NCBI GenBank assembly: GCA_026989495.1
Contig: JALSJE010000113.1
Location: forward strand, 1 to 49,711
Reading direction: 5' to 3'
DNA from: Gammaproteobacteria bacterium
GTDB taxonomy: Bacteria; Pseudomonadota; Gammaproteobacteria; S144-34
DNA length: 49,711 nucleotides
The position numbers and the translations under genes were made by a program. The notes under the pieces are model-generated. The model made no database searches. It was not told the DNA's origin and was given only the letters and a program-made list of their open reading frames with translations. Of this stretch, positions 4,399 to 42,105 are shown one piece after another (the stretch's first letter is position 1; each line of letters starts with the position of its first letter).

Positions 4399-4444
4399 AG
4401 GCTAGCGAGCCCGCGTCGGGCAGGTGAATATCACCAAAGGGATA
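4399..4444 (-). promoter_or_regulatory. Candidate operator and promoter of grxC
   Basis: Read on the minus strand, TATCCC-TTTG-GTGATA (4444 to 4429) is followed after 24 nt by TAGCCT (4404 to 4399), a possible -10 box. The palindrome matches the dsrA-upstream site at 11 of 12 arm positions, and its distance to the -10 repeats the geometry seen upstream of the sel1-dsrS-like operon. Binding by any regulator is inference. Confidence 0.5.
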
Positions 4445-4517
4445 AGGGGACAGTGGACGGGAAGGCTCTGCCATGTCCTCGCGGCCGCCAGGCCTCTCTC
4501 GTTTGCGGCCTGCTGGT

Positions 4518-4540
4518 GCGCGGCTGGAAGCCGCGCCTAC
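4518..4540 (-). repeat. Single GTAG-type REP element
   Basis: On the minus strand GTAG is followed by a perfect 8-bp hairpin, GCGCGGCT-TCC-AGCCGCGC (4518-4536). This is the GTAG-plus-stem architecture of gammaproteobacterial REP sequences mobilised by RAYT transposases. Only one copy is seen in the window, so family membership rests on this resemblance. Confidence 0.5.
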
Positions 4541-4569
4541 GGGAAACGCCCCCACGCGCTTGGGCGGCG

Positions 4570-5115
4570 TCAGCCTTGCTCGAGGCGCGCGCTGGTGACC
4601 TCGACCGACGTGAAGTTGGCCTTCAGCCATTTGTAGACCATGTGTGAGGCGAGGCGCTCGATCCCTTCCGCGGGCGGCCGCTTCTGGATCAGGCTCACCT
4701 TCAGGTCCAGCTTGAGGGTGTCGGGCGTATAGTGCCGGGCGAGGCGCTGGAGCGCGTCGGTCTGGCGCGGCCGCACCGGCGGCAGGGTGAAGGCCACCGC
4801 CTGCAGCCCCTGGACGTTGACGCTGGAGAAGACCGGCCGCAGCTTCACCCGCACCTCGTTGCGCGCGAGGGTGGCCGCCAGCCAGGCGATGGCGTCGGCG
4901 GCGGCGATCAGCTCGGGATCCACACCACCCGCCTCGCGGAAATAGTCCAGCGCGGGATAGTAGCCGAGCCCCTCGGCACGCACGTAGGCGGCCACCGCCT
5001 CCGCCAGCTGCTCGCCCACCACGGCCGGCGAGGAGGCCGCGTGGCGCTCCAGCGCCTCGTGCGGCACCTGCAGCGTGACTGCCAGCCCGATGCGGGTGAC
5101 GTGGAGGGCGCTCAC
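4570..5115 (-). CDS. Conserved-looking hypothetical protein (181 aa)
   Basis: I do not recognise this protein. It is 181 aa with a GTG start (5115), no signal peptide and no membrane segment. It has an Ala-rich helical N-terminal half (EQLAEAVAAYVRAEGLGYYP) and a more beta-like C-terminal half (VRVKLRPVFSSVNVQGLQAV). Codon use matches its neighbours, and the competing frame over the same region reads as low-complexity Gly/Ala/Arg, which supports this one. It follows the DsrS-like gene by 100 nt on the same strand and could be the last gene of the sel1-dsrS-like operon. Confidence 0.65.
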   Translation of the reverse strand: MSALHVTRIGLAVTLQVPHEALERHAASSPAVVGEQLAEAVAAYVRAEGLGYYPALDYFREAGGVDPELIAAADAIAWLAATLARNEVRVKLRPVFSSVNVQGLQAVAFTLPPVRPRQTDALQRLARHYTPDTLKLDLKVSLIQKRPPAEGIERLASHMVYKWLKANFTSVEVTSARLEQG

Positions 5116-5215
5116 AGCGGCAACCGCCTCCCATCCGACTCAACCGAGGGTACGAGGGGCGGGACGCGGGGACGTCGGCAGGGGGGCCACATGGGGCGAG
5201 GCACCGCTGCCGCGC

Positions 5216-40400: not shown

Positions 40401-40559
40401 CTCGGCATGACACCGCTCGCCCTCGGCCTCGGCGAGGGCGCAGAGCTCCTCCAGCCGCTCGCGGTGGTGATGGTCTGGGGGCTCGCCTTCTCGACGGTGG
40501 TGACGCTGGCCCTGATACCGGCCGTCTACCGCCTCGCCCACCGGGGTGCGGCGGCCTGA
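37455..40559 (+). CDS. RND-family efflux permease (AcrB/HAE1-like)
   Basis: A 1034-aa inner-membrane proton antiporter with the duplicated RND plan. TM1 is SVLAAAVCVLGLAALAALR, and a large periplasmic loop follows. TM2-6 begin near AALTGALLAMAVVYLFLG, with GGLAVGVGLLVDSTIVMLEN (TM4 region). A second half repeats the plan, ending VVTLALIPAVYRLAHR. Its GTG start is coupled to the adaptor. No outer-membrane channel gene is adjacent. The substrate is unknown. Confidence 0.93.
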   Translation: MSVPAAPGVGRRGGLAAWAVDHPVGVSVLAAAVCVLGLAALAALRVDLLPRLIYPEIRVRVLDPGVPPAVMEDRVTRQLEEQLAITEGAVAIQSFTTEGRSAVNLSFPYGTDIDAALRDASNRLDRARRFLPDTIQPPIIFKRDPSQIPVLELVASSASRDPVALREWVDYTLSRWLINLPGVAAVEVGGGLEREIAVVADPARLAALGLDHEDLARAIARGGRDAPGGRLTGALRAWTARAVAAARDAQALARLPVRAGTDGLPLRLGEVAAVAEGHEPERLRVRLNGVPGVKASIQKQPEANTVAVVDHVRARLAWLRAQGLIPGDVTVRPVGDQSTFIRHAIRNAALAALTGALLAMAVVYLFLGDLRRTLVIGTAIPIAILVTFAGMAAGGLTLNVMTLGGLAVGVGLLVDSTIVMLENVHRHQRLGEPTREAAVRAAGEVASPIVAATSTNLAAVLPFLFVGGLVGLLFRELILTIALAILASLVVALTLVPALGARIRDRSPGRVRRLADAAMGVLRTRYQRIVRGVLRRPWLPPLLLVPLLAAAVLWLGGARQAFLPVPDEGRIYVRLTGDPGITLDDMDAAVARVEALILAQPEVDTAYTVVGGFVFGRSEYETPNRSSITIQLVPLGERAVSSEAFATRLRREIRRLGLAGVRVRLHVAGVRGVRLGHGDDDLSLRVRGPDLAELARIGDRIVERLRGIPGLRNLSHTYEAPGQEIAVRLEPARAADLGVTAAHVGRALRAALEGLEVAELVRGDRAVPIRLRLAGTAARDPAALADVIVREVDGRPVRVGDVATVEIVAMPPRIQRDRQQRIVEVAGSFAPDTDPEALMAEVWRRLEGLELPEGYALYDAGALQALREGRRLGGLMLALAVFLVFVAMAVQYESLRDPLVILASVPFALTGVALGLATTGMPLSMPVWLGLIMLAGIVVNNAIVLVEQIRLERARGRALEAAIVEAAGNRLRPILMTVLTTVLGMTPLALGLGEGAELLQPLAVVMVWGLAFSTVVTLALIPAVYRLAHRGAAA

Positions 40560-40571
40560 GCAGGGGAGCGT

Positions 40572-42020
40572 TCAGCCCCTGGACGCCTCCGCGGCGGGCG
40601 CCGCGGAGGGCTCGTCCGCGCGCACCGTCTCGCCGGCGGGCTTGAACCAGGACAGGGTGTCGTGCAGGCGCACCACCTCGCCCACGATGACGAGGGCAGG
40701 GGGCTCCACCTCATGCCGGCGCACCAGGTCCGGGAGGGTCTCCAGGGTGCCCACGTAGACCTTCTGGTCCGGCGTGGTGCCCTGCTGCACGAGCGCCGCC
40801 GGTGTCGTGGCCGGCAGCCCGTGGGCAGCCAGCTCGCGGCAGATGACCTTGATGCCGTGCACCCCCATGTAGAAGACCACCGTCTGGTGGGGCTGGGCCA
40901 GCATGGGCCAGTTGAGGTCCAGCGAACCGTCCTTCAGATGGCCCGTGACGAACACGCAGGCCTGCGCGTAGTCGCGGTGGGTGAGCGGGATGCCCGCGTA
41001 GGCGGCACAGCCCGAGGCGGCGGTGATGCCCGGCACCACCTGGAAGGGGATGCGCTCGGCCATGAGGGTGGCGATCTCCTCGCCCCCGCGCCCGAAGATG
41101 AACGGGTCGCCCCCCTTCAGCCGCAGCACCCGCCTGCCCTCCCGGGCCAGACGCACCAGGAGCTCGTTGATGGACTCCTGCGGGAGGGTATGCTGGCTGC
41201 GCTTCTTCCCCACGTAGACGCGCTCGGCGTCGCGGCGCACCAGGTCCAGGATCTCCGGCGCCACCAGGCGGTCGTAGACGACCACGTCGGCCTGCTGCAT
41301 GAGGCGCATCGCCCGGAAGGTCAGCAGATCCGGATCCCCCGGACCCGCGCCCACCAGATAGACCTCGCCCAGGGGCTGCGCGTGCGGGTCGGCTTCGGCC
41401 AGCGCGGCCTCCAGCGCGGCCCGCGCCTCGGCCTCCTTGCCCGCGAGCACGAGCTCGGCGATGGGCCCGTCGAGCACCCGCTCCCAGAAGCGCCGCCGCA
41501 CCTCGGGGTCGCGGATGCGCGCCTTGACCCGGGGACGGTAGGCCTCGGCGAGCGCCGCCAGCCGCCCGTAGCCCGCCGGGATCACGCTCTCCAGGCGCGC
41601 ACGCAGCTGGCGTGCCAGCACGGGTGAGCTGCCGCCGGTGGAGACGGCGATCTGCACCGGCGAGCGGTCCACGATGGAGGGCATGACGAAGGTGCACAGG
41701 TCCGGGCGGTCCACCACGTTGACCGGGATGTTGCCTGCGCGCGCCGCCTCGGAGACGGCGCGGTTGACGGCCTCGTCGTCCGTGGCGGCCACTGCCAGCG
41801 CCATGCCCTCCACGTCGCCCGGCTCGAAGGCGCGCGCCAGGTGCTCGACGGCGCCGGAGGCCCGGGCCGCCTCGAGCCGCTCGCACAGGGCGGGGGCCAC
41901 CACCCGCACGCGGGCGCCGGCCCGGCGCAGGAGAGAGACCTTGCGCGCGGCCACCTCCCCGCCTCCCACCACGAGGCAGGGCCGCTCGCGCACGTTCATG
42001 AAAACCGGCAGAAAATCCAT
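40572..42020 (-). CDS. cysG: Siroheme synthase CysG (trifunctional)
   Basis: A 482-aa enzyme converting uroporphyrinogen III to siroheme. The N-terminal CysG-B half has the NAD motif [11 protein letters not shown] (17-27), and [15 protein letters not shown] of the dehydrogenase/ferrochelatase active site. The C-terminal SUMT half starts near residue 218 ([17 protein letters not shown]) and carries [13 protein letters not shown]. Siroheme is the DsrAB cofactor. A palindrome of the dsrA type lies 51 nt upstream of the ATG, which suggests joint control. Confidence 0.97.
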
Positions 42021-42070
42021 GCTTTAGACCCCGTTTGCAACACTTCACACCATGAGGCCACGCAGCGGAA

Positions 42071-42105
42071 TATCCCCCTTGGGCTAGATCGCGTCCCGGT
42101 ATCCC
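42071..42105 (-). promoter_or_regulatory. Candidate operator upstream of cysG
   Basis: On the minus strand TAGCCC-AAGG-GGGATA (42086 to 42071) matches the dsrA palindrome at 11 of 12 arm positions. A further GGGATA half-site (42105 to 42100) lies 29 nt upstream of the proximal one. The -10 at the expected distance (TGAAGT, 42047 to 42042) is poor. The site also lies upstream of the divergent FKBP gene, whose own -10 may be TAGACT (42175-42180). Confidence 0.5.

Follow-up and report, generated by a model that had tools for sequence, protein, structure and literature searches.

A candidate NarL-type switch and its operator at the reverse Dsr genes of gammaproteobacterial sulfur oxidisers

Reverse Dsr is one of the main routes by which purple sulfur bacteria, SUP05 and many symbionts oxidise the sulfur they store. 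Other known regulators, such as SoxR/sHdrR and TspS/TspR, also control sulfur-oxidation genes, as is proposed for the kinase-regulator pair considered here, but they belong to other protein families and act on other targets. The subject is a stretch of 49,711 nucleotides from a gammaproteobacterium (contig JALSJE010000113.1 of assembly GCA_026989495.1; “the window” means this whole stretch), in which a row of dsr genes is followed by a NarX-like sensor kinase and a NarL-type response regulator, and in which the palindrome TATCCC-N4-GGGATA stands upstream of dsrA, a sel1 gene, cysG, a glutaredoxin gene (grx) and a gene of 68 amino acids (aa). Comparative evidence makes it probable, at roughly 85%, that the NarL-family regulator, paired with the NarX-like kinase, binds this palindrome and activates dsr, the 68-aa gene and the sel1 locus, together with grx and cysG within the genus.

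The closest described system is NarX/NarL of Escherichia coli, where NarX follows a HAMP, HisKA_3, HATPase plan and NarL recognises the half-site TACYYMT. The window's kinase carries HAMP, HisKA_3 and HATPase_c and is of NarX type by that measure. Its regulator has a receiver (PF00072, 3.4e-31) and a LuxR/GerE helix-turn-helix (PF00196, 4.7e-23), and its nearest PDB chain is E. coli NarL itself (1a04, E 4.3e-51), followed by DevR at 1.9e-33. The systems differ in their input and in their proposed targets, which here are sulfur-oxidation genes. Pfam (E 0.001) gives only HAMP, GAF, HisKA_3 and HATPase-type domains for the kinase, with no periplasmic nitrate-sensing domain, and the input part varies by lineage: some kinases have a cysteine cluster, and SUP05-like ones have nothing aligned to the GAF region.

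The DNA sites are comparable as well. The 7-2-7 operator of NarL consists of two inverted 7-mers around a 2-bp spacer, 16 bp in all, and is similar in sequence to the palindrome here, whose half-site TA(T/C)C(C/T)C stands against NarL's TACYYMT. One dsrA site, TATCCCCAAAGGGATA (locus L016), differs at 3 of 16 bases from an engineered NarL site, TACCCCTAAAGGGGTA, given in an excerpt of PMC4549865. At the E. coli ogt promoter, according to an excerpt of PMC7419079, NarL activates from -77.5 and -44.5. The two sites of dsrA are likewise 33 bp apart, and would be centred at about -76.5 and -43.5 on an assumed position of the -10 element. The promoters differ in that ogt is induced by nitrate and codes for a DNA repair enzyme (same excerpt), and in that the second dsrA site is degenerate. 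Allochromatium vinosum has a dsr cluster of similar gene order. Its genome paper, in the part available (PMC3368242), treats the dsr genes, with reference to Grimm et al. 2010, as a single transcription element in which dsrC and dsrS have additional promoters; it lists NarX/NarL (Alvin_1057/1058) and reports that no obvious nitrate reduction genes were found. Judging from the relative Marichromatium, Alvin_1057/1058 would be the orthologue of the kinase-regulator pair and the dsr regulator there. In the excerpts of open-licence literature covered, no description of the site or of a dsr regulator in sulfur oxidisers was found.

The operator upstream of dsrA

The five palindromes that a preliminary description had placed upstream of dsrA, sel1, cysG, grx and the 68-aa gene are all present where it put them, with 0, 1, 1, 2 and 2 mismatches in the arms. 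With two mismatches allowed, the window holds 5 palindromes where 0.57 are expected, a count reached by none of 100 shuffles, and at up to one mismatch it holds 3 against 0.02 expected. The strings TATCCC and GGGATA had been called nearly absent elsewhere, which is fair: they occur 10 times on the + strand of the window, 6 of these inside the sites. Because the motif was read off the same window, the enrichment figures are biased, and weight is therefore put on comparison with other genomes, which is free of that bias. Allowing two mismatches, the source assembly (2.54 Mb in 143 contigs, of which the window is 2%) gives 18 places, and the window accounts for 5 of these (binomial 2e-5). Of the 13 other places 8 sit in coding-like open reading frames (ORFs), and a reversed control pattern finds 7 places; taken by itself, the loose motif therefore turns up at some background rate by chance.

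The site is kept upstream of dsrA across the class. A first set comprised 80 dsrA loci from named genome records, 78 of them with usable upstream DNA (L046, with 132 nt, and L058, with 2 nt, were dropped). The site matches at up to two mismatches in 73 of the 78, and perfectly in 28 of these; the set includes Marichromatium, Halochromatium, Thioalkalivibrio, Thiogranum, SUP05 Thioglobus and many other Gammaproteobacteria. The second set was an even draw of 274 genomes of class Gammaproteobacteria, 92 of which have dsrA at a match cut-off of E 1e-80. It yielded 99 dsrA matches, of which 6 were cut by a contig end and 2 had only ~60 nt upstream, leaving 91 copies to be read. A matrix built from 55 distinct dsrA sites of the first set reaches its threshold score of 8 at 78 of 86 copies in regulator-bearing genomes and at 0 of 5 in regulator-less ones (Fisher 3e-5), against 2% of shuffles. 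The simpler criterion of up to two mismatches holds at 73 of the 86, and the reversed pattern appears at 1 of 91. Perfect palindromes number 52 in the whole draw, and 25 of them lie no more than 310 nt upstream of a dsrA match. The two sets are not fully independent, since some genomes, such as those of the window's genus, are common to both.

The architecture of the dsrA promoter is conserved along with the site. Aligned upstream regions read TATCYC-N4-GGGATA, then CACCCCAWSGGTAGGRT, then TAGACT. The middle element corresponds to a second, degenerate inverted repeat, CACCCCATCGGTAGGG in the window, which does end 23 nt before TAGACT, as had been proposed. Among distinct dsrA promoters, TAnnnT lies 56-57 nt past site 1 in 61 of 71, and where site 2 is recognisable TAnnnT lies 23-24 nt past it in 45 of 57; an extra peak 28 nt past site 1 is the TAGGRT of site 2 itself. 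These counts omit loci with more than two mismatches, sites beyond -340 and duplicates. The proposed gaps of 23 or 24 nt to a -10 element at sel1, grx and the 68-aa gene hold as well (Table 1). In the five single-site promoters checked for a -35 element, TTGACA is matched at 0-4 of 6 bases at spacing 16-18, the 4 being TTCACC at grx.

The kinase and regulator beside the dsr row

Orthologues of the regulator (cut-off E <1e-60) and dsrA occur together. Across the 274 genomes the regulator occurs in 94; 83 have both genes, 9 have dsrA only, 11 the regulator only and 171 neither (Fisher 7e-47), and two of the nine dsrA-only genomes have a divergent regulator orthologue of 54% identity, near the cut-off. 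Of 47 genomes with both genes on one contig, 42 encode the regulator on the strand of dsrA and 13-17 kb downstream of it, and the kinase directly precedes the regulator in 26 of 26 loci. The recognition helix, TVKLHVK..L.KL, is near-invariant across 27 sequences. Site and regulator are also missing together: the five regulator-less genomes with a readable dsrA promoter have no site in any of them. The co-occurrence with dsrA, the adjacency to dsr, the NarL-type helix and these five promoters all argue for the NarL-like protein as the probable binder, the role first suggested for it.

Only one of the 27 regulators (L132, genome G024) has a NarL-like VKVHVK helix, and the dsrA site of that genome (L054) has a NarL-like TACCCC half. 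This pairing of helix and site is a single case, and TACCCC halves are found elsewhere too.

Some dsrA copies are without the operator. Among 24 phage-borne loci found in IMG/VR (L397-L420), 19 have 450 nt upstream and none of these carries the site; given this absence, phage-borne copies may bypass host control. Second dsrA copies in G186 and G248 have no site, and the sister copy in each genome has one. Among the three dsrA-bearing genomes near 1 Mb, G069 keeps regulator and site, and G172 and G285 have neither.

Other candidate targets

Relatives of the 68-aa gene and of the 387-aa protein encoded behind sel1 were sought in 66 of the 83 genomes with both regulator and dsrA, and were found in 45 and 60 of the 66, respectively. 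Upstream scoring of these class loci covered the best 30 of 45 places for the 68-aa gene and the best 30 of 61 for the 387-aa gene, 9 of the latter 30 holding a sel1 match. Among the best 30 of the 68-aa gene, 8 score at least 10 (0.5% of shuffles do), and in 19 the top 16-mer is followed by TAnnnT at a gap of 23 or 24. In a second set, 12 of 48 upstream regions of this gene score at least 8, against 1% of shuffles, and TAnnnT at gap 23 or 24 is counted 10 times over these 12 promoters. At the sel1 locus 10 of 14 score at least 8 (1.8% of shuffles do), and over these 10 sites there are 10 counts of TAnnnT at a gap of 23 or 24 nt on the divergent side; of the class loci, 7 of 9 score at least 10, and all 7 have that gap on the divergent side. 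Eight other genes of these loci score at 1 of 443 upstream regions.

Which gene does the sel1-locus site serve? In the other genera examined its -10 element faces a divergent 65-aa gene, not sel1, and of 25 upstream regions of that gene 12 score at least 8, with the 23- or 24-nt gap present in 8 of the 12 (the sites in question overlap the sel1 ones). Within the window's genus it is sel1 that the -10 element faces: three genomes share TAGACT at 24 nt across a spacer that has diverged. The protein under the operator in other genera is tiny and conserved (65-67 aa; L176:3633-3827). Its 67-aa relative in the window shows a weak likeness to ribosome modulation factor (E 0.024, below the cut-off), and SUP05-like loci have a degenerate site with the same 23-nt spacing. 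The 387-aa gene is rejected as a direct target, as 0 of 30 upstream regions (best 30 of 61) score at least 8. Nor is there support for the earlier label “dsrS-like”: tblastn of the 387-aa protein (E 1e-4) gave no match in the 8.5 kb of Marichromatium gracile that run on from inside dsrN.

The palindromes of grx and cysG are kept in both congeners, at grx with TAGCCT at 24 nt and at cysG with no clear -10 element at 23-24 nt in the window or the congeners. The genome G110 has sel1, the 387-aa gene, grx and cysG in one row behind a single perfect site, which fits the split of the same genes into separately marked units in the window. Outside the genus, 0 of 5 loci each score at least 8. The idea of a single activator over sulfur oxidation, siroheme supply and three accessory loci is partly supported: the site recurs across families at dsrA, at the 68-aa gene and at the sel1 locus, its recurrent targets, and was seen at grx and cysG only within the genus. 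There is good support for one regulator shared by dsr and accessory loci.

Beyond the window, one of the remaining places in the source assembly lies upstream of a second dsrA on contig C10 (L006; G000:C10:14678-16116), 64% identical to the first, which is preceded by a weaker palindrome, CTTCCCGAAAGGGATA, a CACCCC element and TAGGCT. Another intergenic palindrome, TATCCCATCCGGGGGA (L209 site 1720, G000:C123:15219), is kept in two congeners and precedes a small ORF, MTGKYKPRAE..., with TATCTA about 23-24 nt from the palindrome; this locus is a possible further target of the regulator. A place near the end of an rpsD-like gene, recognised by eye (L210; kept in congeners L215 and L216), was rejected because it overlaps coding sequence, as was one inside a rhodanese gene (G013), and places within long ORFs (for example L194, L196, L199, L203 and L207) were counted as background.

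Table 1. Positions of operators and genes in the window
Feature	Position	Strand	Remark
grx, glutaredoxin gene	4096..4362	-	
grx operator	4429..4444	-	TAGCCT 24 nt downstream
387-aa conserved protein behind sel1	5216..6379	-	no Pfam match
Sel1-repeat protein	6376..6822	-	
sel1 operator	6881..6896	-	TAGACT 24 nt downstream
67-aa relative of the 65-aa gene	8200..8403	+	in other genera the 65-aa gene stands divergent to sel1 and under the operator
68-aa gene	13362..13568	-	no Pfam match
68-aa gene operator	13674..13689	-	TAGAGT 23 nt downstream
dsrA operator site 1	15633..15648	+	perfect TATCCC-N4-GGGATA; centre ~-76.5 if -10 starts at -12
dsrA site 2	15666..15681	+	CACCCCATCGGTAGGG, degenerate inverted repeat; centre ~-43.5 if -10 starts at -12
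dsrA -10 element, TAGACT	15705..15710	+	23 nt past site 2, 56 nt past site 1
dsr gene row	15902..29975	+	dsrA 15902-17170; dsrA, dsrB, dsrE, dsrF, dsrH and dsrC by family model
dsrM, dsrK	within 15902..29975	+	dsrM below cut-off
dsrL, dsrO, dsrP, dsrN	within 15902..29975	+	named from domains and gene order
Pyridine nucleotide-disulphide oxidoreductase	28542-29975	+	end of the dsr row
NarX-like sensor kinase	30004..31746	+	short membrane region, HAMP, GAF with CxC-x10-C-x6-C, HisKA_3, HATPase
NarL-type response regulator	31747..32433	+	receiver and GerE helix-turn-helix; putative operator binder
Rhodanese-domain protein	32430..32927	+	a relative follows the regulator in 14/26 loci
cysG, siroheme synthase	40572..42020	-	NF007922, 672 bits
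cysG operator	42071..42086	-	

The annotation of the dsr row leaves out ~24.2-24.7 and ~28.2-28.5 kb. Between the 68-aa gene and dsrA lies a gene for a Cas6-family protein (PF09559; 13710-14420, - strand), and such a gene stays upstream of dsrA in several other loci, in some of them beside a DsrC-like gene. An intergenic repeat ending in CGCTGATCAATCCGCGCAGCGGATTGATC, or variants of it, occurs three times in the window (3871-4014, 13137-13281 and 33896-33956), the first two copies being 85-87% alike over ~145 nt.

Mechanism, alternatives and meaning

The palindrome is an inverted repeat in the 7-2-7 pattern of NarL, and its most likely binder is the regulator, acting as a NarL-type dimer. Phosphorylation by the NarX-like kinase encoded just upstream would trigger binding. 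Two dimers would then sit at dsrA, near the positions given above, and a single dimer near -43.5 or -44.5 at single-site promoters. The bound regulator would recruit RNA polymerase to promoters that have a TAGACT-like -10 element and no good -35. This would switch on the sulfur-oxidation operon of reverse Dsr together with the 68-aa gene, the sel1 locus and, within the genus, grx and cysG. The conserved site, its fixed spacing, the co-occurrence with the regulator and the joint absence are observed; direct binding and the kinase-regulator pairing we infer, as we do activation, for which the grounds are the position of the sites and the lack of a good -35. What could the kinase sense? A redox or sulfane-sulfur signal is a first guess, in view of the cysteine cluster in its GAF domain and of the rhodanese encoded nearby.

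Several observations weigh against this reading. Eight of the 86 dsrA copies in regulator-bearing genomes score below 8. Two are second copies with a site-bearing sister (G186:C9 and G248:C25) and one (G289:C155) resembles a second-type copy; five are unexplained (G092, G146, G227, G262 and G297). Site 2 of dsrA deviates from the site-1 consensus, the second-set regions of the 68-aa gene that score number only 12 of 48, and 4 of the 12 scoring regions of the 65-aa gene have no -10 element at gap 23-24. The grx and cysG sites are confined to the genus. The five regulator-less genomes represent three families and hence few independent losses. In eleven genomes the regulator is present without a dsrA match at E 1e-80. 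Two of these show traces of dsrA, namely a fragment at a contig end in G249 and, in G123, a two-site promoter of dsrA type next to a piece of cas6, and a scan of 8 of the 11, with five loci read, gave no dsrA-like promoter except that of G123; the remaining regulator-only genomes are unexplained.

Could another, unlinked transcription factor bind the palindrome, the NarL-like pair merely accompanying the dsr cluster? Four genomes of a first set of 30 (G010, G015, G019 and G029, completeness figures not given) have a dsrA site with no regulator orthologue detected, which counts for such a factor and against the main reading. Such a factor is improbable nonetheless, given that the site resembles the NarL 7-2-7 operator and stands at NarL-type positions, that it is missing from the five readable regulator-less promoters, and that two apparent exceptions have the divergent orthologue near the cut-off. 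It is about as doubtful that the regulator binds and represses dsr until the signal comes. Position by itself does not settle the sign, NarL both activating and repressing in E. coli (excerpt of PMC4549865), but the sites end 23-24 nt before the -10 element and the five single-site promoters have no good TTGACA, which argues for dependence on an activator.

Two further readings question whether there is an operator at all, and both are very unlikely. RNA hairpins, terminators or a repeat family would also be palindromic, and the sites are intergenic where function is proposed; yet their spacing to the -10 element is fixed, perfect copies are few per genome, and site and -10 are kept while the flanking DNA diverges. 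A chance cluster picked by eye would fit a motif chosen from the window, 8 of 13 other genome matches in coding-like ORFs, and a window that at up to three mismatches is at chance level (9 palindromes against 7.5 expected). Class-wide conservation with controls contradicts chance for dsrA, the 68-aa gene and the sel1 locus, and does so most weakly for cysG. A NarL-type operator under the neighbouring regulator remains the preferred reading.

The candidate master switch for dsr thus comes with a regulator gene, an operator with base-level spacing and a short list of targets. In a wider sense, it seems likely, if less firmly so than the operator assignment itself, that a NarX/NarL pair rewired from nitrate to sulfur serves as the dedicated reverse Dsr switch across the gammaproteobacterial sulfur oxidisers, SUP05-like bacteria as well as purple sulfur bacteria, and that “NarXL” annotated in genomes without nitrate reduction is this same switch. 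Some genomes of ~1 Mb (G172 and G285) would do without regulator and operator, G069 keeping both, and phage-borne dsrA without the operator would escape host control. If true, this would account for the NarX/NarL genes of sulfur bacteria that have no nitrate reduction, and would connect the sulfur pathway with a Sel1-repeat protein and two tiny uncharacterised proteins, of 68 and 65 aa.

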